Shown: positions 1 through 18,869 of the stretch, in pieces
Position numbering within the stretch: position 1 is the first letter of the stretch
How the letters are laid out: each line of letters opens with the position of its first letter
DNA from: a virus
Virus record (IMG/VR): IMGVR_UViG_3300041016_001013
Span: 1-21,531 of that record
Length of the DNA stretch: 21,531 nt
Reading direction: 5' to 3' (one strand)
Notes under the pieces: generated by a model
What the model saw: the letters and a program-made list of their open reading frames with translations, nothing else
The model's database searches: none
Told to the model about the DNA's origin: nothing
Made by a program: the position numbers and the translations under genes

Positions 1-3000
1 TATTGGGAAAATAGAAATGAGTTAGTTACAGAGCTCAGAGAATTGCAAAAAAGAATGAATGAAGTTTCTAAGTCTAAATTTGATGTAGCTGAAGCATTCC
101 AAACAATTAATGATCTTATTTATAGTTACAGGGATGAACAAGGAGAACCTGATAGTTCTGCTATGGGTAAAACAAGACTTGAAAGAATCCGTGATATGGA
201 ACAAGCTATCACTGATTTTAAGTTTAAATATGATATGTCCACCGGTCTTTCTAGAGAAGACTCCGAAGAGTTAAAAGAACTATCAGAAAAATCTAGAAAA
301 GGATTACTCAAACCAGGTACTCCAGAGTCTAAAAGATATATGTATCTATTAGATATGCAAGAGTCTGAAGGTATCTTACCTGAAGATGCCGCTAGAATAC
401 AAGAAATATTTTCTGAGTTATCTGACTTGTCTGTAAATAGTCCTACTACATATTATATGGAGGTATTAAACTATAACTTATCTAAGCAAAACATTAAAGA
501 ACAAGATGAGGATGAGGTTAATGACTTCATAAACTCAGATGAATTCCAAGATATACTTGATGCTGATGAAGAGTTTAGAAATTGGTTTGAATTAAATCAC
601 TATGTTATTCAGACATATGATAAACCATCTAGAGCTTATGTTTCTAAATACAAAAGAACAAAAGCAAATACAGTAGCTATTCCAAGAGACGAGAGTTATA
701 TCAAGTTTACAAAAATTCTTGATAGAAATGGAGATGAAGTTCTGTTAATGGGTGCTCCAAATGCTAGACACTCTAGATATGAAGTTAAAGATAAGTATAG
801 AACTATTCCTTTTGGTGCTTCTAAAGAAGATTATGTAGGTAAATATGTAGATAATAAAAATCATCCACTTCCTAGAATGTATGATCTAAATGCTAAACAT
901 AGTGCACGTGATGGTAGATTCATGAATGAGAAGTATTTCCAAATGCAATCTGCAAATAGTAATGAATTTAAGTTACTTGAATCAATTAAGGAATACCATT
1001 TAGAAAATCAAAAAGGTCAGAGTAACTATAGTAAACTATATCATGACATGCCAAGATATGCTCTTAAAAAAGGAGACATATACCAAGCAATGCAGAAAGG
1101 TGCCTATGGTCAAAGATTTTCTGAATTAGGAAAGAATGTACAAGAGTGGTACAAACAAGCATTAGGTAAGTCTGTAATGGATGCTGAGAATGATTTAAAC
1201 TATAATCCTGAAAATAACTTAGTGAATACTGATTTAGATGGAAATCAAATATCTTATATCCCTGTTTCAGGTATTTACAACCTTGATATTGATGTACAAG
1301 ATGCGGATATTTTCCAAGGTCTATTTAGATATGCATTGTCTGTTCAAACTCAAGGAAAGTTATTAGAAAGTTTACCTCTTGTTCAAAGTATCTTAGATAC
1401 ATTAGAAGATCCAGACAATGCTCCAAAAGAACTAGAAAAGTTTGATAAGAATATCTATAGTTTAAAGGGGGCTCTTACTAATGCAAAGAAAAAATTTGCA
1501 ACTAATAATAGACTTGGTCAGGTAAAAGCTTTAATTGAAAGAGAATATTATGGTAAAATGGTGGAAGGAATTGAAGAAACTCACCCTGGATTTGGTAAAT
1601 GGATAAATCAACTTCAAGGTTTATCTGCTATGGGATCATTAGCAGTTAATCTTCCTTCTGACTTAAAAAATAAGTACGGTGCATATGTGCAGTTGATAAT
1701 TGAGGGTGCAGGTGCTGAATTTATAAGTCTTAAAGATATTGCACTTGCAAGACCATGGGCAGAAAAAGCTATGTTAGAGTGGAGTACAAAAGGAATATAT
1801 CAAACAGGAGCAGGTGCCGTATCAACACAATTGATTCAAATGTTTGATCCAAACTTTAAATTTAAAGATCAGTTTGGTAGAGAAATAGAAAGATCAATGG
1901 TAAAAGATCTTGCAAACATGGAGTGGATGTATATGCATAGAAAATTTGGTGAGATGCAAGTTGCTGTCTCGTTGTTTGGTTCTTTCATGTACGGTCAGAA
2001 AGTTGATCAAATTCTTAGTGATGGTACTAAAAAGTCAATGAGATATATTGAAGCTTGGGAAAAAGATGCTGATGGTATTATTAGACTTAAAAAAGGTGTA
2101 CATCCTGGTTGGAGTAATCTTGCAGTTTATCATGAATATGTTAAAGGAGAATCTTTAGAAGAAATTGCTAAAAAATATTATATAACAGTTGATGAACTTA
2201 AAGCTAAGAACAGGATTAAGTCTGAAGTACAACTTGAAGATGGCCAAGAACTTGTTATAGCCAAGTCAGAGTTATTCATGGGTCTTAAGAATAGAATTCA
2301 AGGGGTATCCAGAAAACTTTTTGGAACATATGATGATATGGGTCAACCTGAAGGTAACAAACTATTGCTTTATAGAATGTTCTTCTTTATGAGAAAATGG
2401 TTTACTCCTATGTTAATGAATAGATTTGGATTTGATTCTAAAACTTTAACTTGGACAAATGGTGGTGAGAAATATGATTGGGCAACTAGTTCATATGGTA
2501 AAGGTTTTTACATTACTGCATTCCAAACAATGTTAAAGACAATGAAATCAGGTTTTAAAAATTATAGTTATTTAACTGATGCAGAAAAAACAGCTGTCAG
2601 AAAAATGGGTGCTGAAGGATTCTTTGCAATTGGTCTTGCATTACTAGGAATAATGATATTTGGATTTGATCCTGATGATGATGAAAAGTGGAAAAAATTG
2701 AGAGCACAATCTGGAGCAGTTAATCAAGATAATTTTAGTACATATGGTTTCTTAGCTAATCACATGTTATTACTTGCAATGGGTGTTCAAGCTGAGTCAA
2801 GTGCATTTATTCCACTTCCTTCTATAAAAGGAATAAATTTTGGTGCAGATGATTATGTAAAGATGATGACACAAACAACTACATCTTGGTATAACACAGT
2901 TGTACTTTATATTGATATATTTGGAGATGTATTAGACTTTGTAACATTCTCTGAAATGGATAGATACAAAAGAGATACAGGACCTTATTCATGGAAGAGT

Positions 3001-3120
3001 AAAGGAGAATTAAAAATTTGGAGTAAATTAGGAAAAGTAATTGGTCTATCAGGAGGTACTGGAGATCCAGTTACACAATTTGAAAATATGTTTAAAAACA
3101 GTGCAAAATTAGGAGGATAA
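1..3120 (+). CDS. C-terminal part of a giant phage protein with an internal LysM-like module (5' end outside window)
   Basis: The frame is open from the first base, so this is the end of a longer gene; the first in-window start candidate is only a TTG at 43. About 1,039 residues are visible. The N-terminal part is charged and probably helical. A LysM-like module (nt about 2128-2271) has the YxVKGESLxxIAxKYxITVDELKxxN and DGQELVI pattern. Near the C-terminus is one hydrophobic, probably membrane-spanning segment (nt 2611-2667) followed by an acidic DPDDDE patch. No catalytic motif is recognisable. In crAss-like and N4-like phages very large proteins of this type are virion components, some ejected into the host, so a virion or ejection protein is inferred. 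It is the last long plus-strand gene before the strand switch. LysM modules usually bind peptidoglycan; whether this copy does is untested. Confidence 0.75.
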   Translation, partial: YWENRNELVTELRELQKRMNEVSKSKFDVAEAFQTINDLIYSYRDEQGEPDSSAMGKTRLERIRDMEQAITDFKFKYDMSTGLSREDSEELKELSEKSRKGLLKPGTPESKRYMYLLDMQESEGILPEDAARIQEIFSELSDLSVNSPTTYYMEVLNYNLSKQNIKEQDEDEVNDFINSDEFQDILDADEEFRNWFELNHYVIQTYDKPSRAYVSKYKRTKANTVAIPRDESYIKFTKILDRNGDEVLLMGAPNARHSRYEVKDKYRTIPFGASKEDYVGKYVDNKNHPLPRMYDLNAKHSARDGRFMNEKYFQMQSANSNEFKLLESIKEYHLENQKGQSNYSKLYHDMPRYALKKGDIYQAMQKGAYGQRFSELGKNVQEWYKQALGKSVMDAENDLNYNPENNLVNTDLDGNQISYIPVSGIYNLDIDVQDADIFQGLFRYALSVQTQGKLLESLPLVQSILDTLEDPDNAPKELEKFDKNIYSLKGALTNAKKKFATNNRLGQVKALIEREYYGKMVEGIEETHPGFGKWINQLQGLSAMGSLAVNLPSDLKNKYGAYVQLIIEGAGAEFISLKDIALARPWAEKAMLEWSTKGIYQTGAGAVSTQLIQMFDPNFKFKDQFGREIERSMVKDLANMEWMYMHRKFGEMQVAVSLFGSFMYGQKVDQILSDGTKKSMRYIEAWEKDADGIIRLKKGVHPGWSNLAVYHEYVKGESLEEIAKKYYITVDELKAKNRIKSEVQLEDGQELVIAKSELFMGLKNRIQGVSRKLFGTYDDMGQPEGNKLLLYRMFFFMRKWFTPMLMNRFGFDSKTLTWTNGGEKYDWATSSYGKGFYITAFQTMLKTMKSGFKNYSYLTDAEKTAVRKMGAEGFFAIGLALLGIMIFGFDPDDDEKWKKLRAQSGAVNQDNFSTYGFLANHMLLLAMGVQAESSAFIPLPSIKGINFGADDYVKMMTQTTTSWYNTVVLYIDIFGDVLDFVTFSEMDRYKRDTGPYSWKSKGELKIWSKLGKVIGLSGGTGDPVTQFENMFKNSAKLGG

Positions 3121-3565: not shown

Positions 3566-4996
3566 CTAAAAGAAGTCAGGAACTGAATCCGGATCTTCAT
3601 TAGTATCTTCACTGAAGTCTAAGTCAAAGTTGTCTTCTAAAGCAAACTCATCTTCTATCTTAGGTTCTTCAATAATTTCTATTGTTTCAATAACTTCTGT
3701 TGCAGGTAGTTCTTCTTCTCCTTCAGTATCAGTTTTACCCCAAATTAATTCTTCAACAGTTGGTTCATTATCTATAGGTTCTTTAAGTTGAACCTCTAAT
3801 ATATCATTGAAAGATTCAATAACTATAGGAGTTTCAAATGTATTACCAACTGGATCAGTGTACTTAACTACATCCGGTTCTATTTCTTTTAAAGTAAAAT
3901 TACCTGCTACATCAGGGGTTACCCAAGTAACTTCAGACATATCAATTTCTGAAGCATCAATTTCTGGTGCATTTATAAGAGCATCCATAATTTCTTCAGG
4001 TACTTTAACACCTGCTAATTGAGCCATAGCAAAAGCATCTGTTTCAAGTTCAAGTTTAAGTTCAAGTGCTCTTGCATTCATAAAAGTAGTTTCAGCTAAA
4101 TAAAGTTCAGCTGCTAACTCTTCTGTTACATTTGCATCATATCTAATATCTTCATCCATCTGATCTGCTTCTAAATCTGCAATCTGATCTAGCAAGTTAG
4201 TTTGATTAGGATCAACTTCAGGTTCTATAACTTCAGTAGGAATAGCAACAGGTTGAATTACTTGTGCAGGTGTACTACACTGTTGAAAATTACCAATTGT
4301 ACCAATGAAATAATGCAAAACTCTTTGATCTTCCATCCAAGTTTTTGGATGTGAGTTTTGAAGAGCTATTGTTACATAGTTATAAAATGCCCATAAACTA
4401 GCTGCATTAGCAAATACATGATATGGTTTCTTCATTTGGTCCCGTATCATACTAGCTTGTTCAGTAGTAAGTATTTCATACTCTGCAAACAAAACACCTA
4501 ATAATTGAGACTGTTTTCTTTTGTTTAAAGTAATACCTTCCATGATAGCTTTATCATCACACAATTGAGTATAATACATGTGTGCATTAGTGATATAGTC
4601 ATCAATAATCTTTTTGGTTTCTGTATCTGCAGTCCCGGTATGTTTTCTTACCCAACTACCAATATCTCCTGAAGTCATAACAGCACCAGTTTTATTGATA
4701 TAAGCACCAACTACACATTTAAACTTTACTTGTTTGTTGTAACTGTTTGTCCAGGCAAACATCATTGATAATTCAGGATCAGAATTAAACTGAAGTTTAT
4801 AAACTCCTGTGGCAATTTGTCCATCTGCAGTACATCTATACTGCTCATCTACAATTATAAACCCTGCAGTAGCAAGGGCTTGATAAGCATAATCAATAAT
4901 AAATTGATGACTAATTACAGTATAAGTAGCTGCATGATTTGGCAATGCTACACTGATTAACTCATCTTTTGTTGTATTTTGAATTTTTCTTGGCAT
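3566..4996 (-). CDS. DUF932-like phage protein with long acidic C-terminal tail
   Basis: 476 residues in two parts. Residues about 1-245 form a compact domain with TVISHQFIIDYAYQAL, a TNSYNKQVKFKCVVGAY segment and SGDIGSWVRKHTGT. This arrangement resembles the phage/plasmid DUF932 family (asparagine-serine-tyrosine segment followed by a hydrophobic strand and a basic H/R patch), whose biochemical role is unknown. Residues about 250-476 are strongly acidic, low in complexity and end DSVPDFF. Such an acidic tail with a terminal aromatic pair recalls the C-terminal tips of SSB-like proteins, so a protein-docking role is possible but inferred. The start lies 2 bases past the polymerase stop, so the two genes are almost certainly co-transcribed and perhaps co-regulated. 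The family assignment is moderate to weak. Confidence 0.6.
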   Translation of the reverse strand: MPRKIQNTTKDELISVALPNHAATYTVISHQFIIDYAYQALATAGFIIVDEQYRCTADGQIATGVYKLQFNSDPELSMMFAWTNSYNKQVKFKCVVGAYINKTGAVMTSGDIGSWVRKHTGTADTETKKIIDDYITNAHMYYTQLCDDKAIMEGITLNKRKQSQLLGVLFAEYEILTTEQASMIRDQMKKPYHVFANAASLWAFYNYVTIALQNSHPKTWMEDQRVLHYFIGTIGNFQQCSTPAQVIQPVAIPTEVIEPEVDPNQTNLLDQIADLEADQMDEDIRYDANVTEELAAELYLAETTFMNARALELKLELETDAFAMAQLAGVKVPEEIMDALINAPEIDASEIDMSEVTWVTPDVAGNFTLKEIEPDVVKYTDPVGNTFETPIVIESFNDILEVQLKEPIDNEPTVEELIWGKTDTEGEEELPATEVIETIEIIEEPKIEDEFALEDNFDLDFSEDTNEDPDSVPDFF

Positions 4997-4998
4997 AA

Positions 4999-6897
4999 TT
5001 AAAATAAACTTAATTGGTTTGTACTAGGTTCTAGAGATTCAATTTCTTTATTTATTTTCTCTAGATAATAATCATAATTAATATCATACTCTTCAAATGG
5101 TTTTTCTACATAATTAATCAATGTAGTTTGCATCCATTTACCAGCTTCTACTTGTATTTCTCTGTTGTCTGTCTTGTTTCTTTTAATGATTTTAGACCCT
5201 GACTTAGAGATAAAGTATCTGATAGTATGTTGTAAAGGATTGGTTATATAGTCACCATTTTCTATTTTGTGTTCTACAAATTTCCAATCTCCTTTAATTT
5301 TTACACCACCGCAAAAATCAAAAATGTTTAGATTTTCACTTATAAACTTTTCAGGTTTAATCCCATCTACAAAATATGCATGTATTGCTTGTGGTATGAC
5401 TAAGAAACTCTTGTTCTTATGAAGAGCAAGATCTTTATACTCAAATCTACCTTTACATTTAGATTTGCCCTCTTCATTTATAGCAATATAGTTATTTACA
5501 TCTCCCAGTACAATCTTAGAATACTTATCATGTTCTAGTTGAAGACTTGTTATCTTCTCCCATCTTTGACAAATTGCCATATACTGATCTTCATACTCCC
5601 GTGGAATCATAGTTTCTAAACCATCTGTATTTTGCATTAGAGGAATTGCTCCCGGAATCTCTTCACAAATCATCTCATATAACATACTAAGACTTAATTG
5701 GCCATTGATAGTTATACACATTGTGAATTGAGGATCATACAGGAAACTATTCTCGTCATTACTAAGACCATAGGTTGAATTTAAAATAATCTTGTATACA
5801 TAATTTCTTGGATCTGATTTTGGAATCTTTTTTCTTTCTTCAAAGAACCATTCATACTGTTCACAAAATTCTTCTTTAGGTAAATGTGCAGGAGCCCATC
5901 CATTTCTAATAGCCAAATTAGGATAATAACTTACAACATCTGAAGTCATAATAATCATGTCTTCTGTTGAATTATAGACTTTACTAGATCTAGCACCATG
6001 AATGCCACCCAAACCATAGTCAGTCTTAACTCCCTTATATTGTATAGAATATTTAAAACCTCCTTTAGTTTCTTCTGGATACAATACTATATCCTGAAAT
6101 TTCTTGAGAAGATTTTGAAATGTTGCTGTCTTGAATTCAACATAAGGTAGTATAATATCTTTAAAAATAATCTGTTCTCTCTGAGTTCTCATTTGTTTTA
6201 AGTGCCACTTCTTGATACCAGTTGATTTATTTAAGAAATGCAAAAATAATTCTTTGGATATTCTAGGTTCAGAGGCTGAGAACAAATCTATATCATATTC
6301 TTCTGTTAGTACTTTTCTCAGATTAATTTGATCCTTACTTAGATGCATTATCTGTTTAGTAGACTTGACATCATTTATACAATAATTAATAATCTCCGGT
6401 ATCTGACTTTCTTCTATTTCAGTAGTATGATGAATAGGCATATCTATGATATTTTTCCAATCCATAGTATACTGAATCCATTTCAAACTAGATCTCTTTG
6501 CAGGATTGTCCCAGTGATTAAGTTTAAAGACATCAATTTGTCTTATACTTAAATCTTTTGGACTAAACAATGCAAACTCTCCCGAATTACTTCTCTCAAT
6601 AGTTTGTTGTGCTTTCTGATAAATCCATTTTGCAATTTCTTCACCATCCATAAATAATAATGTACTACTATTTCTTACTATATGTTCAGTAATCTGACTG
6701 TCAAAAGCAAGACCATTAAAACTTACATGCCATTCATTCAGTTCTATGTTTTTATGTAAAAAAGTAAGTAAAGATACTATGTCATTTTTAGACTTATGAC
6801 ATATAAAGATTTCTTGGTGTTCAGATTTTACATCTTCAAATACACCGATGAAACAATTAGATAATGTTTCATAATCGTGGACCCAATGTGTTTTCAT
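4999..6897 (-). CDS. DNA polymerase, family B, with 3'-5' exonuclease domain and C-terminal clamp-binding motif
   Basis: Replicative polymerase of 632 residues. The proofreading exonuclease is complete: Exo I D8-Y-E10, Exo II N61-GLAF-D66, Exo III Y172-CIN-D176. Polymerase motif A is D320-VVSYYPN, motif B is K369-IIL-N373-STYG, and motif C is N423-T-D425-G, where most family B enzymes have DTD(S). About 40 residues separate motifs A and B, which leaves little room for the TPR2 insertion of protein-primed polymerases, so conventional priming by the neighbouring primase is likely. The last five residues are QLSLF, the canonical bacterial beta-clamp-binding pentapeptide. The protein is shorter than cellular family B enzymes (about 750-900 aa), as is usual in phages. 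It opens a unit after the 6934-6967 terminator; the ATG has no Shine-Dalgarno. Confidence 0.95.
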   Translation of the reverse strand: MKTHWVHDYETLSNCFIGVFEDVKSEHQEIFICHKSKNDIVSLLTFLHKNIELNEWHVSFNGLAFDSQITEHIVRNSSTLLFMDGEEIAKWIYQKAQQTIERSNSGEFALFSPKDLSIRQIDVFKLNHWDNPAKRSSLKWIQYTMDWKNIIDMPIHHTTEIEESQIPEIINYCINDVKSTKQIMHLSKDQINLRKVLTEEYDIDLFSASEPRISKELFLHFLNKSTGIKKWHLKQMRTQREQIIFKDIILPYVEFKTATFQNLLKKFQDIVLYPEETKGGFKYSIQYKGVKTDYGLGGIHGARSSKVYNSTEDMIIMTSDVVSYYPNLAIRNGWAPAHLPKEEFCEQYEWFFEERKKIPKSDPRNYVYKIILNSTYGLSNDENSFLYDPQFTMCITINGQLSLSMLYEMICEEIPGAIPLMQNTDGLETMIPREYEDQYMAICQRWEKITSLQLEHDKYSKIVLGDVNNYIAINEEGKSKCKGRFEYKDLALHKNKSFLVIPQAIHAYFVDGIKPEKFISENLNIFDFCGGVKIKGDWKFVEHKIENGDYITNPLQHTIRYFISKSGSKIIKRNKTDNREIQVEAGKWMQTTLINYVEKPFEEYDINYDYYLEKINKEIESLEPSTNQLSLF

Positions 6898-10341: not shown

Positions 10342-11511
10342 TTATTTTACAGCCATCTTCACCACCTCTTGGTTCATCATTAACTGACTAAACTTAACTT
10401 TATTACCGTTAACTATCTCTTTGACCATATAATATCTAAGGTCATCAGTAAATGCATCACAGTCTGTTGTAAGTTTAGCTATTCTGTCAATCATAAGTTT
10501 ACCAATTGAACCTTTCTCAGCAACAGTAAGAGAATAATTTATTATTCTTGTTGCAATAATACTTGAAATATCAGCACGGAACTCATCATCTTTTCCTACT
10601 GCACTAGTAAGAGAGCTCATTACATACTGTTCATCTTTAGTCATAATATCTACAGGACTAATAATTCTATCAAGTTTATTATTAATGAACATAGTGAACA
10701 TTGAACTAAAGTCAGGACCAACTGAACCCTCACCAATCATCTGAATCAATGGTAAGCTTTCTTCAAACTTAGGAATAGAACTAATACCATTAAAGAATGT
10801 AGTAATAGCTCTTGGATTAATTCTTTGAGTTACTAATTCTGGGTGCATCAACATAAAGTTAATACATCTACCATCTATGTTTGCTTTCTCTGCCCATTTA
10901 GCCCATACATCAGAATCATATTTTAATTCTACAGAAATAAATCTAGTCTTCTGAGCAACATCCAAAGAAGTTACATTATAATCACCATTGTCTGGATTAG
11001 TTGTCAAGATAACATGCCAGTTTTTAGGTAATTTCCAAGAAACATACTCTTGTCTATCTAATATCTCCATTGTTGCTTGCATGAATCTTTGATCAGCACG
11101 AGTATAATCATCTAATACTAAGAAGCCACCTTCACCTTTACCTTGAATCCATTCAGGAGCAGCATGAGACATTCTTTTGTCTACTACTTTATATCCTTTT
11201 GCACTTGCAGCAGGTATTTGAGATTCATTAATCCAAGTAGATTTACCTTCTGCATTTTGGATCTGAAATTCTTTAATAGGAAAACCAACCAAGTCACCTA
11301 ATTCTTCCAACTGAGATAAATTAAGTTTTACAACTTCCATATTTAACTCTTTACCTAACTGCATTATTGCTGAAGTCTTACCAAGACCTGCATCACCTTC
11401 TATATTAATTGCTACAGGAACTTTACCGTCCTTCTGAATATGTTGGTTATTATCAACCATATGCTTAATAAAACCTTTTAACTCTTCAACATTTAATTGC
11501 ACTTGACTCAT
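10342..11511 (-). CDS. MoxR-type AAA+ ATPase
   Basis: AAA+ ATPase of 389 residues, predicted to remodel or activate a partner protein using ATP. Walker A is G39-DAGLGKT46, Walker B FLVLDD (residues 130-135), sensor 1 TTNP (170-173), and an arginine-finger candidate is R190 in AQKTRF. The order and the C-terminal helical region fit the MoxR/dynein-related branch. The gene lies 11 bases after a VWA-domain protein, the classic genomic partner: MoxR ATPases typically act as chaperones that load metals or activate VWA-containing targets. Its substrate here is presumably the VWA/metallopeptidase-like protein. It is the last gene of the primase unit and is followed by a terminator. All ATPase motifs are intact. 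The biological process in the phage is not evident. Confidence 0.88.
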   Translation of the reverse strand: MSQVQLNVEELKGFIKHMVDNNQHIQKDGKVPVAINIEGDAGLGKTSAIMQLGKELNMEVVKLNLSQLEELGDLVGFPIKEFQIQNAEGKSTWINESQIPAASAKGYKVVDKRMSHAAPEWIQGKGEGGFLVLDDYTRADQRFMQATMEILDRQEYVSWKLPKNWHVILTTNPDNGDYNVTSLDVAQKTRFISVELKYDSDVWAKWAEKANIDGRCINFMLMHPELVTQRINPRAITTFFNGISSIPKFEESLPLIQMIGEGSVGPDFSSMFTMFINNKLDRIISPVDIMTKDEQYVMSSLTSAVGKDDEFRADISSIIATRIINYSLTVAEKGSIGKLMIDRIAKLTTDCDAFTDDLRYYMVKEIVNGNKVKFSQLMMNQEVVKMAVK

Positions 11512-11522
11512 CTTTCTTTTTT

Positions 11523-12827
11523 TTATAGTTCTAACTTAATTACTTTACCTGGTAAACTTTCATTCATATATGATCTTTCTGACAAAACCCAAAGAACATT
11601 TCCTTTAGGTTTTACATCTGTATAACACTCACCATCTGTAAAATACACCAGGCTAGTATATTTATTTTGGTTTGCATTAAAATACTCCAAGACAGGATCA
11701 AACTCTGTTCCTCCTCTTCCTAATACAGTCAATTCAAATTTACCTTTATAAGGTTCAATAGATTTAATAGACGTATCACATTGAATTATAGTAATTTCTA
11801 CTCCACATTTATAAATATGGTGCATTTCTCCCATAAATTCTCTTAACTCATCATCACTAACAGAACCTGAAGTATCAATGGCCAACAACATGTGTTGTCT
11901 CATCTTTACTTTAAGACCAGGATTAGCATCAAATCTCTTGTTTTCCTTTCTTCTAATCTTCTTAGTGAACACTTTAGTACTTACACCTGTAAATCTTCTA
12001 ATGTATCCTCTCCAATCAAATTTAGGTGCAACAATTTCTTCAATAATAATTACTCCTTCTATTTCACCAGGAACATTACCTCTTTTCTTAACAGTTTGCT
12101 CTTTAGCATCTGAAAGTACTTTCTGTAATTGTTTCTCAATTAATTTATGTTCAGCTTCAGTGAGATCTTCAAATTCATCCCATGTACTGTGATCAGGAAC
12201 ATCACCAGAAGCTATATTATCTAATAATTCATCCATTGCATCACAACCACATGTTCCATTTTGTTTTTTCTCATCTTGAGCTTCTTTAAGCTTATCATAG
12301 TAATATCTACAACCTGCTCTAGCAGCAAGATTCATTTCAACATAATCTTCAATCATAATACCTCTACTTGGAAGTTTATTTGCAATAACTTGCAATTCTT
12401 CCTGTGGAGCATCATTTTCCTTAGCACTCTCTAATTCAGATACTATACTTGCTTTAAGAGTATCAAACTCTTCTTTAGTATAATCTCCTCCTGGAAGCCA
12501 AGAGTTATCAATATACTGATTAATCTCCATATCCATTGCAACATTTGCAAGTTTTCTATCAGTAAACTTAAAAAATGTAGTCAAGTGACCAAATGCAATA
12601 TGTAATAATTCATGTTTTAACAAACCAAGTTTGTTTAATTCAGATAAACTTTCCCAAAATGTAGGATTAATTGCAAGTTGATAATTAATACCATTCTTAC
12701 TTACTCCTGCTGTAGGAACACGTTTACCATCCCAAACTTTGTTTAGCATAAGTAGAAAGAATCCATAATATGGTTCTTTCAACATAAGCTCTTTACTAGT
12801 CTTACTAAGACTTGTTACTTTGTCCAT
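11523..12827 (-). CDS. Metallopeptidase-like (DUF2201-type) and VWA domain protein
   Basis: 434 residues in two domains. The N-terminal part has a zincin-like signature H72-ELL-H76-IAFG-H81, followed by a D99/E101 helix (VAMDMEINQYI), the arrangement of DUF2201-type putative metallopeptidases. Residues about 115-250 are charged and helical with a CGCD segment. The C-terminal domain is a von Willebrand factor A fold with an intact metal-ion-dependent adhesion site: D318-T-S320-G-S322, T374 in GRGGTEFDP, D398 in YFTDGE. Cellular relatives pair with MoxR ATPases, encoded immediately downstream here. The start overlaps the preceding gene by 23 bases, indicating coupling. Whether the zincin site cleaves peptides or is only structural cannot be told from sequence. 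It is soluble, with no signal peptide. Confidence 0.86.
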   Translation of the reverse strand: MDKVTSLSKTSKELMLKEPYYGFFLLMLNKVWDGKRVPTAGVSKNGINYQLAINPTFWESLSELNKLGLLKHELLHIAFGHLTTFFKFTDRKLANVAMDMEINQYIDNSWLPGGDYTKEEFDTLKASIVSELESAKENDAPQEELQVIANKLPSRGIMIEDYVEMNLAARAGCRYYYDKLKEAQDEKKQNGTCGCDAMDELLDNIASGDVPDHSTWDEFEDLTEAEHKLIEKQLQKVLSDAKEQTVKKRGNVPGEIEGVIIIEEIVAPKFDWRGYIRRFTGVSTKVFTKKIRRKENKRFDANPGLKVKMRQHMLLAIDTSGSVSDDELREFMGEMHHIYKCGVEITIIQCDTSIKSIEPYKGKFELTVLGRGGTEFDPVLEYFNANQNKYTSLVYFTDGECYTDVKPKGNVLWVLSERSYMNESLPGKVIKLEL

Positions 12828-14350: not shown

Positions 14351-14776
14351 TTATTTTGTTTTGTAAAATCTACCAAGAATATTGGCATTTAGGAATTCTT
14401 CTTTCTCTAGCACTTCATATTTAAATTGATGCTTTACTTCTTGATAAGTCAATTCCATACCTGTAAAACAGATCATTAGAATTTCTCTTTTAATATTAAC
14501 ACCTGCTTTGTGAGCATCTTTAAGAATTTTATTACTACTGTAATAATTCATAAAGTCAGGTTTTATTTCTCTAGTATACTTTTTTAGTCTTTTATCTTTA
14601 GTTAAGGCTAAAACTTTTTTACCTAAAGGTTTCTTTTTATTAGTAAAAAAGTTCTTCTTACCAATATATGCAACAGACTTACCATCAATAATAGCAGTCA
14701 TAATGTAAATGAATCCAATACCATGTTCTGGTATACATAACTCATCAAACTCTTTTCCTTGATAACTCCAACTCAT
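14351..14776 (-). CDS. GIY-YIG-like nuclease
   Basis: 141 residues. F22-I-Y24 and Y37-I-G39 are the two strand signatures of the GIY-YIG fold, followed by KK. Downstream are Y78-Y-S (DFMNYYSSNKIL), the REIL strand around residue 97, a YQEVKHQF helix with E113 as the likely metal-binding glutamate, and N130-ANILGRFYK. This is the pattern of short stand-alone phage proteins annotated as GIY-YIG-type endonucleases. There is no extra DNA-binding domain. The start overlaps the primase stop by 4 bases (ATGA). It could be a homing-type or DNA-processing nuclease; the second FIY/YIG motif is good, the catalytic arginine uncertain. Confidence 0.68.
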   Translation of the reverse strand: MSWSYQGKEFDELCIPEHGIGFIYIMTAIIDGKSVAYIGKKNFFTNKKKPLGKKVLALTKDKRLKKYTREIKPDFMNYYSSNKILKDAHKAGVNIKREILMICFTGMELTYQEVKHQFKYEVLEKEEFLNANILGRFYKTK

Positions 14777-15750
14777 AATACTTGTTTTAATAATGGAAAT
14801 AACTTATCTCTCACAGTTTCAACACCATGATCTCTTACTGAATCTGACAAATCTTTAGACATGTCAAGATTGACATAATCAAAACCATACTTCTCTTGAT
14901 ACTTTTGAGCAGACTTTATACCTGGTTCATCATTATCAAATAATACAATTATCTTTTGATACTTTTCTAGGAGTGGTTTTATAAAATTTTCAGGAATGAT
15001 ACTATTCTCACTGTCTGGAGCAATAACTTCAATACCAGTGATTCCTAGTTTCTTAAAACACATCAAATCTTTTAAAGATGATGTAATTATCAAATACTTT
15101 GATTTAAACTCAAGTTGATCATTACCCTGTATGTAATCTCTTATTTTAATGAACTTGTTATCTTTGTTTTTTGGAGTATATATTTTATACATTGTACCAT
15201 CTTCTCTGAAAAAACCATAAATAAAGTTACCTTTAATTGTAACAGAATCTAATAATCTACCCTCATCTTCTTTTATCATTGTATAAAAAGATAGTGGTTG
15301 AACATTGTGTTTTTCTAAAAGAAATGAAGATAATTTGAAGTTCTTCCAATAAGCTTGATCTAATGTATTCCAATGTCTAATCTCAAAATCAGAAACAATA
15401 TATTTACTATGAGCTTTATATTCAAGTGGAACATATGTATTATTAGAAACATAGATATTGTAATCATCCATTATTCTAAATGAAGCTTTACCTCTACCAT
15501 CAAGATTGTATAGGTGCATCACAAGATTTAAACCATCTCCTCCATAACCAGAAGAGAAATCTTTAAACTTGTAGTAACCCTTACTATCTGTATAGACACA
15601 CATAGAAGGAACTTTATCACTTGTATTAAATACAGATTTAAGTTTTAGACTTTGACCACATAATCTTTCAGTAAGTTTTAGATAGTGCTCAAATACCCAT
15701 TCTCTAGGGACATCATTTAAATCAGAAATTATTGCATTTGTAGAAATCAT
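14773..15750 (-). CDS. DnaG-like phage primase (Toprim)
   Basis: Predicted DNA primase of 325 residues that makes RNA primers for the neighbouring polymerase. The N-terminal segment (about 38-82) has the layout of a CHC2 primase zinc domain (VPSMCVYTDS, KFKDFSSGYGGDGLNLVMHL) but lacks the zinc ligands. The Toprim domain covers about 219-305: KYLIITSSLKDLM, where the usual glutamate is serine; the metal-binding D272-N-D274 in VLFDNDEPG; and SKDLSD (298-303). It is short compared with bacterial DnaG (about 580 aa) and has no helicase-binding C-terminal domain. It opens its unit 14 bases after a long terminator hairpin. The serine variant at the first Toprim motif is, as I recall, seen in other phage primases, so activity is likely retained. 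Confidence 0.85.
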   Translation of the reverse strand: MISTNAIISDLNDVPREWVFEHYLKLTERLCGQSLKLKSVFNTSDKVPSMCVYTDSKGYYKFKDFSSGYGGDGLNLVMHLYNLDGRGKASFRIMDDYNIYVSNNTYVPLEYKAHSKYIVSDFEIRHWNTLDQAYWKNFKLSSFLLEKHNVQPLSFYTMIKEDEGRLLDSVTIKGNFIYGFFREDGTMYKIYTPKNKDNKFIKIRDYIQGNDQLEFKSKYLIITSSLKDLMCFKKLGITGIEVIAPDSENSIIPENFIKPLLEKYQKIIVLFDNDEPGIKSAQKYQEKYGFDYVNLDMSKDLSDSVRDHGVETVRDKLFPLLKQVL

Positions 15751-17861: not shown

Positions 17862-18869
17862 TTAATTTACAGAGATTTTTTGTGTAGTTTCCCTTGGAGG
17901 AGTGGTTATTTCTATTATTCTCATAGTAGTTCTATCTAATTTAAAGAAACTTATTCTGGTCATACCATTTCTAGATTTAAGAAAATGAAATACTAATGTA
18001 TCCGGATCTTCAATTAAGAACTTTTCAGGACCATACTTTTTTATCTTTCTAATAGATGGTTTATTCATACCCATAACTACATCAGCATGCTGTAATAAAG
18101 CATCTGAACCATATATATCAGAATCTAATACATAATTACCATAAGTGGCTTCTATTTGTCTTTTAGGATCATCTATGTTCCTATTTAATTGACTAAGGAC
18201 TACAAAAGCTACAGGATAATTCTTTTTCATTATGGTGAGTGCTTCACCTAGAGCTCCTAACATTTCAAATTTATCTTTTTGTCCAAAATCATTTTTAAAT
18301 AAAGCTGAGTGATCTATAGTAACAAGTAAGTTTGTATACTTTCCATCAGATTTTCTATGTCTTTCCAATTCATGATGAATTGTAGCACACATTTCATTGA
18401 CAGTACATGTATCATAGACAACATTTATAAGATCTGTGTTTATTGACTCTTTATAATAGTCAACACATTTCTGAAATAAATTTTTATCTACTAACTTACC
18501 ACCCTTACTCATTAATGTATTGTAATCAGCACCTGTAATCAGACCAAATTTTCTTATTGCACTGGTTTCATCAACCATTTCCATCTGAAACTTAAGTACC
18601 CTAAATTCTTGATTAGGATTCTGAATAATAATATCAGAAACTAACTGTTCCATAAATAGGGTCTTACCTGTTCCAGGTCTTGCACCAACAACTGTTATTG
18701 TTTTCCATTCAAGTCCATCACAAAAAGCATCATTAAATTTTGGCCATGCACTAATAAGTGCTGGAAGTTTACCTTCTCTCTTTGCCTTCATTTTAATAAG
18801 ACCTTTTTCTAAACTTTCCCTTTCACTAACAGGTAACAGGTGTCTCGCACCATTAAATAATTTTGTCAT
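17862..18869 (-). CDS. dnaB: Replicative DNA helicase, DnaB-type ATPase domain
   Basis: RecA-fold replicative helicase. Walker A is G62-ARPGTGKT70, the H1a glutamate E97 lies in FQMEM, Walker B is LLVTIDHS with D186, the H3 motif is S226-QLNR230, an H4-like segment YGSDALLQHADVV follows, and R300-NG is the arginine-finger region. All elements of the DnaB C-terminal domain are present. At 335 residues it lacks the usual roughly 150-residue N-terminal primase-binding domain; about 50 residues precede the ATPase core. It follows the 196-aa protein by 17 bases. Short DnaB forms are common in phages. It should unwind DNA for the primase and polymerase B encoded in the same region. Confidence 0.92.
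   Translation of the reverse strand: MTKLFNGARHLLPVSERESLEKGLIKMKAKREGKLPALISAWPKFNDAFCDGLEWKTITVVGARPGTGKTLFMEQLVSDIIIQNPNQEFRVLKFQMEMVDETSAIRKFGLITGADYNTLMSKGGKLVDKNLFQKCVDYYKESINTDLINVVYDTCTVNEMCATIHHELERHRKSDGKYTNLLVTIDHSALFKNDFGQKDKFEMLGALGEALTIMKKNYPVAFVVLSQLNRNIDDPKRQIEATYGNYVLDSDIYGSDALLQHADVVMGMNKPSIRKIKKYGPEKFLIEDPDTLVFHFLKSRNGMTRISFFKLDRTTMRIIEITTPPRETTQKISVN

Follow-up and report, generated by a model that had tools for sequence, protein, structure and literature searches.

A putative sliding-clamp-binding motif at the C terminus of a family B DNA polymerase from a phage broadly related to the crAss-like phages

The polymerase gene and its surroundings

The window, by which we mean the whole 21,531-nucleotide stretch of viral DNA that was analysed, encodes a family B DNA polymerase (PolB), a DnaB-like replicative helicase and a DnaG-type primase (Table 1), together with a Sak4-like ATPase, a PD-(D/E)XK exonuclease and a uracil-DNA glycosylase. 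PolB belongs to the crAss-like PolB group (PHROG 1252), as judged by the family match and by its active-site residues: in the alignment, D8, E10, D66, Y172 and D176 of the exonuclease domain and D320, K369, N373 and D425 of the polymerase domain were invariant or nearly so. A Foldseek search against the PDB matched PolB to family B polymerases and ranked the structures of Escherichia coli Pol II below archaeal PolBs and Pol alpha, the best family match being the phage family PHROG 1252.

Table 1. Positions in the window of the replication genes and of the motifs discussed in the text.
Feature	Position	Strand	Basis or remark
Family B DNA polymerase (PolB), exonuclease and polymerase domains	4999..6897	minus	632 aa; PHROG 1252, E 6e-142
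polB stop codon	4999..5001	minus	
C-terminal sliding-clamp-binding motif (putative), QLSLF, residues 628-632	5002..5016	minus	direct reading and conservation
Variable linker between last helix and motif, residues 623-627	5017..5031	minus	mostly low conservation; length differs among relatives
DUF932-family protein directly downstream of PolB	3566..4996	minus	DUF932 in 32/54 homologues
Candidate second clamp-like motif (tentative), QTNLL, residues 265-269 of the DUF932 protein	4190..4204	minus	conserved Gln in variable tail
DnaG-type primase with Toprim domain	14773..15750	minus	PHROG 12622, E 1e-24; Toprim_2, E 3e-5
DnaB-like replicative helicase	17862..18869	minus	PHROG 19, E 1.3e-30

Direct reading of the open reading frame gave a C terminus of ...SLEPSTNQLSLF followed by the stop codon, so that the ending NQLSLF reported in an earlier note on this DNA is correct. 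The last five residues fit the bacterial clamp-binding consensus QL[S/D]LF and its general form QxxLF, with the glutamine at position 1, a hydrophobic residue at position 4 and an aromatic residue at position 5. From the residue frequencies of the window, the chance expectation for QLxLF is 1.3e-5 at one named C terminus and 3.4e-4 across 26 genes. The window also has QVEIL in the exonuclease and QLSIL in a 442-residue protein, which resemble the motif but are not well conserved and were dropped. In the AlphaFold2 model of PolB (mean pLDDT 93), the last helix stops at residue 622, and the pLDDT averages 71 for residues 621 to 630 and 52 for the final two. Because the helix ends there and the confidence drops, the model places the motif on a flexible tail outside the folded core, this tail being the only disordered part of the protein.

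The gene for the DUF932 protein begins 2 bases past the polB stop codon, and in most relatives the next gene likewise starts within a few bases. This protein carries QTNLL in a poorly conserved region in which, among 61 homologues, Q265 was conserved in 100%, P263 in 98% and N264 in 93%, giving the pattern PNQ[TLI]N[LI][LF]. To judge by this pattern, QTNLL is possibly a second clamp-binding site, although it fits the consensus less well than the motif of PolB does. The C terminus of the same protein (3566-3625, minus strand) is a low-confidence acidic tail which ends in DFF or FF in nearly all homologues and resembles the acidic aromatic tips of single-stranded DNA-binding proteins. A fold search on the DUF932 protein returned nothing useful.

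Elsewhere in the window, an AAA+ ATPase (10342-11511) was considered as a clamp loader on the strength of a weak PHROG 168 match and rejected, as PHROG 1297 was the better match and its neighbour is a DUF2201 VWA-type protein; the stretch 10342-12827 (minus strand) encodes a MoxR-like AAA+ ATPase adjoining a DUF2201 metallopeptidase/VWA-like protein. A 1025-residue LysM-domain protein at 43-3120 lies on the opposite, plus strand and had no match among isolate phages.

Conservation of the PolB tail and its place on the PolB tree

A Q[LY]xLF tail was present in all 80 of the nearest IMG/VR relatives of PolB (74-91% identity). When the set was extended by a wider alignment-based search down to 57% identity, an exact QLxLF end was found in 106 of the 120 distinct PolBs of the window clade (57-91% identity) and a pentapeptide-type tail in 116, a count which takes in close variants and tails with one to a few extra residues. 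The four remaining tails (QMQLEFN, QYQLTFE, QIEIIYN and QLELSL) resemble the hexapeptide version of the bacterial motif, least so in the case of QIEIIYN; known hexapeptide clamp binders include QVELEFD of E. coli Pol III and QLVLGL of Pol IV (PMC3716654). Such a switch between pentapeptide and hexapeptide forms is hard to reconcile with any partner other than the bacterial clamp pocket. All 18 distinct Suoliviridae-type gut PolBs also carried QLxLF, QLxLW or near variants such as QTSLFDFVA, and the conservation in homologues that the earlier note had proposed as a check therefore holds in close and distant relatives alike.

The same pattern was seen residue by residue in an alignment of 73 PolBs, which includes Suoliviridae-type sequences just 28-31% identical to the window PolB. 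Gln628 was one of the invariant columns, and Leu629, Leu631 and Phe632 were conserved in 90%, 96% and 89% of the sequences, respectively. Position 630, the third of the motif, varied among S, K, T, N, Q and E, and conservation was comparatively low for this protein at residues 625 to 627, just N-terminal of the motif. Relatives differ in the spacing between the last conserved tyrosines and the glutamine, which is 16 to 22 residues.

To judge from these alignments, the PolB motif is real and under selection as protein, and two explanations that would deny it this role were rejected. That the tail is conserved as a nucleotide signal, for instance as the start region of the next gene, would fit the closeness of that gene in most relatives and the nearly uniform codons of the second leucine (TTA in 99 of 106) and of the phenylalanine (TTT in 101 of 106), on which the adjacent start may place an added nucleotide constraint. 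We consider this reading extremely improbable, as the codon of the first leucine is free (TTA, CTA or CTT), position 3 varies in both codon and residue, and the motif is kept with the start of the next gene at a distance of 54-58 bases (cr125 and cr10) or about 20 bases (locus L200). That the pentapeptide arose by chance or for structural reasons and has no function draws on a QLDLF in the exonuclease domain of some relatives, the PolBs of phage 9NA and others like it; this string aligns with a beta-strand of the fold, was taken as structural, and shows that the pentapeptide can arise in this way. The PolB motif differs from it in being terminal and disordered, with an invariant glutamine amid variable neighbours and with two spellings of the clamp motif, and in the same loci no QLxLF end was seen among the 718 other stop-terminated open reading frames of 150 codons or more (0/718); a functionless pentapeptide is contradicted by these observations, and we give it next to no weight.

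The motif was missing from the PolBs of 9NA, Sasha, Henu15, HMSP1, barba, MEW1 and others, and also from those of jaberico, phi14:2 and FPSV-D18; many proteobacterial phages have PolBs without it, which must work in other ways. In a maximum-likelihood tree, the window PolB clade grouped with these motif-less proteobacterial-phage PolBs (support 97/97), and the Suoliviridae PolBs were placed elsewhere. The distribution of the motif required three changes, at least two of them on well-supported branches, on a tree that was midpoint-rooted and with the four hexapeptide forms scored as motif-less, which undercounts the motif carriers. Since the tree separates the window clade from the Suoliviridae PolBs, the tail would have arisen twice or else have been lost in the line of the proteobacterial phages. 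The PolB of jaberico and that of its relative (loci L093 and L215) lack the glutamine and have NSLFD or NTLFD within the tail, perhaps a degenerate form. Split polB genes were seen in phi14:2, cr118, FPSV-D18 and L114 (loci L081, L092, L094 and L114), which fits the introns reported for crAss-like phages.

The earlier note spoke of related crAss-like polymerases, and the phage is crAss-like in a broad sense only. The helicase of the window had its best isolate matches in crAss phages, and the capsid protein of cr10 gave a distant match in nearly all long relatives (E about 1e-10, 23-27% identity), the window itself having no capsid gene; PolB groups with the PolBs of proteobacterial phages and not with those of the Suoliviridae. 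From the crAss-like kinship we infer a Bacteroidota host. A search of the genome collection gave a single relative, in a Sphingomonadaceae bin, which is possibly a binning artefact.

The search for a phage clamp and the predicted host partner

Since the window covers only 21.5 kb of a larger genome, the absence of a clamp from it says little by itself, and the search was therefore extended to long relatives, many of them above 100 kb (100-129 kb), none of the IMG/VR records being certified complete. No sliding clamp was detected, either in the window or among the long relatives searched, by profiles for the N-terminal and central domains of DnaN, for the phage-type processivity factor PHROG 947, for gp45 and for PCNA. 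As a positive control, PHROG 947 detected clamps in three PolB relatives, SLUR76, phage 73 and RcThunderbird, which belong to Seuratvirus, Septimatrevirus and Titanvirus. The PolBs of two of these clamp-encoding relatives end in AALSFF and SASLF, without the glutamine, as might be expected from such tails if they dock on the phage's own clamp. The case for the absence of a phage clamp is strong, not absolute, as a very divergent processivity factor would escape the profiles. The earlier note had seen no clamp gene in the window and had named a phage-encoded clamp as an outcome that would overturn its reading; the profiles agree with the former and turned up nothing of the latter.

The best explanation of these results, and one that we hold to be very probable, is that PolB docks on the DnaN clamp of the host. 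The phage would supply its own polymerase, helicase and primase and borrow the sliding clamp. The QLSLF on its short flexible tail behind the final helix would occupy the pocket in which the bacterial clamp binds peptides, in a manner analogous to QLGLF of E. coli Pol II and QLSLF of Bacillus subtilis PolC, and this docking would tether PolB to DNA and confer processivity; processive replication is the likely purpose. The borrowing of the host clamp proposed in the earlier note is thus supported by the conservation of the motif and by the failure to find a phage clamp, the binding being predicted from sequence.

Two other readings keep the tail as a binding peptide and change its partner or its purpose. 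The tail could bind a phage-encoded clamp or processivity factor too divergent to be recognised, and the clamp-encoding PolB relatives in Seuratvirus, Septimatrevirus and Titanvirus, two of them with PolB tails of their own kind, lend this some substance. We nevertheless consider it unlikely, given that all the clamp profiles were negative in the long relatives and that the tails of the clamp-encoding relatives are without the glutamine of the bacterial consensus, which is invariant here. Alternatively, the main role of docking on the host clamp could be competition with the host replicase or its displacement, or else repair or polymerase switching. The same motif and pocket would serve, and borrowing of the clamp would be expected to displace host partners as a side effect. 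This too we regard as quite unlikely, as the motif sits on the only recognised polymerase of the phage and as motif-bearing polymerases of families A and B substitute for each other in one gene slot. Docking on host DnaN for processive replication remains our preferred reading.

Family A polymerases and known clamp-binding polymerases

The earlier note dealt with the motif as a trait of PolB, where it was confirmed, and the trait also extends to the family A polymerases (PolA) of crAss-like phages. The PolAs of crAss001, cr111, cr108 and tikkala carry an internal QGDLF, QGNLF, QQDLF or QGDLW; it lies beyond the exonuclease domain in a stretch that varies, and Gln280 and Leu283 are the same in all four. 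In the same five aligned columns, Q-x-x-[LM]-[FW] was present in 61 of 66 PolAs, nearly all from viral contigs (loci L213, L216-L218 and L219-L298), and 26 of these 61 had the exact textbook consensus QL[S/D]LF. The entropy was 0.42-0.49 bits at the Gln, Leu and Phe positions versus mostly 2-3.5 bits around them. By alignment only, the motif is placed in a loop of the thumb region. A crAss-type capsid protein was found in 20 of the 28 PolA records searched for it, and a PHROG 947 clamp in none of the 30 searched.

In crAss-like phages, PolA and PolB are reported to have replaced each other in place repeatedly, which was termed enigmatic in a text that makes no mention of a clamp (Yutin et al., PMC7886860). 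One such pair could be followed in our data. In record G076 (locus L297), the capsid protein shares 65% identity with the cr10 one, and the polymerase is a PolA, with no PolB found. The gene order of this record is PolA, ScpB-like gene, helicase versus PolB, ScpB-like gene, helicase in cr10, and the helicases are 54% identical. Both swap partners bear the motif: the cr10 PolB ends in QLSLW and the G076 PolA has an internal QLSLF. The simplest reading that we can offer is that the host clamp would be a common socket for PolA and PolB. Extended to crAss-like phages and their kin, the host clamp would be a common replisome adaptor, reached by PolB through its C-terminal QLxLF and by PolA through its internal QL[S/D]LF or QGDLF. 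The two polymerases would then be replaceable in place, since each would engage the same host component, and this would explain the PolA/PolB switching; we put this wider proposal at an even chance of being right.

The proposal bears on DNA replication in a very abundant group of phages, which would rely on a hybrid replicase, a phage polymerase working on a host clamp. A shared host clamp, if true, would explain in mechanical terms the repeated polymerase swaps that were called enigmatic (Yutin et al., PMC7886860). It would also mean that these phages share a reliance on the host clamp pocket, a point at which a host defence or an inhibitor of the pocket could act on them.

A phage PolB that docks on a sliding clamp by a C-terminal peptide is familiar from gp43 of T4 and RB69, whose partner is gp45; the difference is that T4 encodes its own clamp and loader. 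We found no description of a clamp motif in crAss-like phage polymerases in the literature, of which our coverage was partial and did not take in a 2011 survey of viral replicases. Interactions of this type are known; what appears to be new is finding one in these phages, and in both of their polymerase families.

Among cellular enzymes, E. coli Pol II is likewise a family B polymerase with a C-terminal Q-L-x-L-F tail (QLGLF; PMC3716654, PDB 3D1E), which docks in the clamp pocket in Pol II and is predicted to do so here; Pol II differs in being a host repair polymerase of another PolB group (G1), whereas the phage PolB is the only recognised polymerase of its genome. Bacterial PolBs of groups G1 and G3 carry clamp motifs (PMC12926913), and G3 has been placed with the crAss-like phage PolBs in published trees (PMC7544198); the G3 enzymes are cellular and uncharacterised, and they are likened to the phage PolB by kinship and by the reported motif, not by motif position. 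For the family A enzymes, the closest parallel is the actinobacterial PolA2, whose QSSLF (PMC12926913) is, as in the crAss-like PolAs, an internal motif in an unstructured loop; in PolA2 the loop belongs to the vestigial exonuclease domain, whereas the motif of the crAss-like PolAs follows the exonuclease domain, in the thumb region according to the alignment. B. subtilis PolC ends in QLSLF, the very pentapeptide of the phage PolB and likewise on a replicative polymerase; in PolC it binds DnaN in an interaction essential for replication, and the affinity of this sequence for the E. coli clamp is submicromolar (PMC12309361); PolC is a cellular family C polymerase with measured binding, whereas for the phage PolB the binding is predicted.
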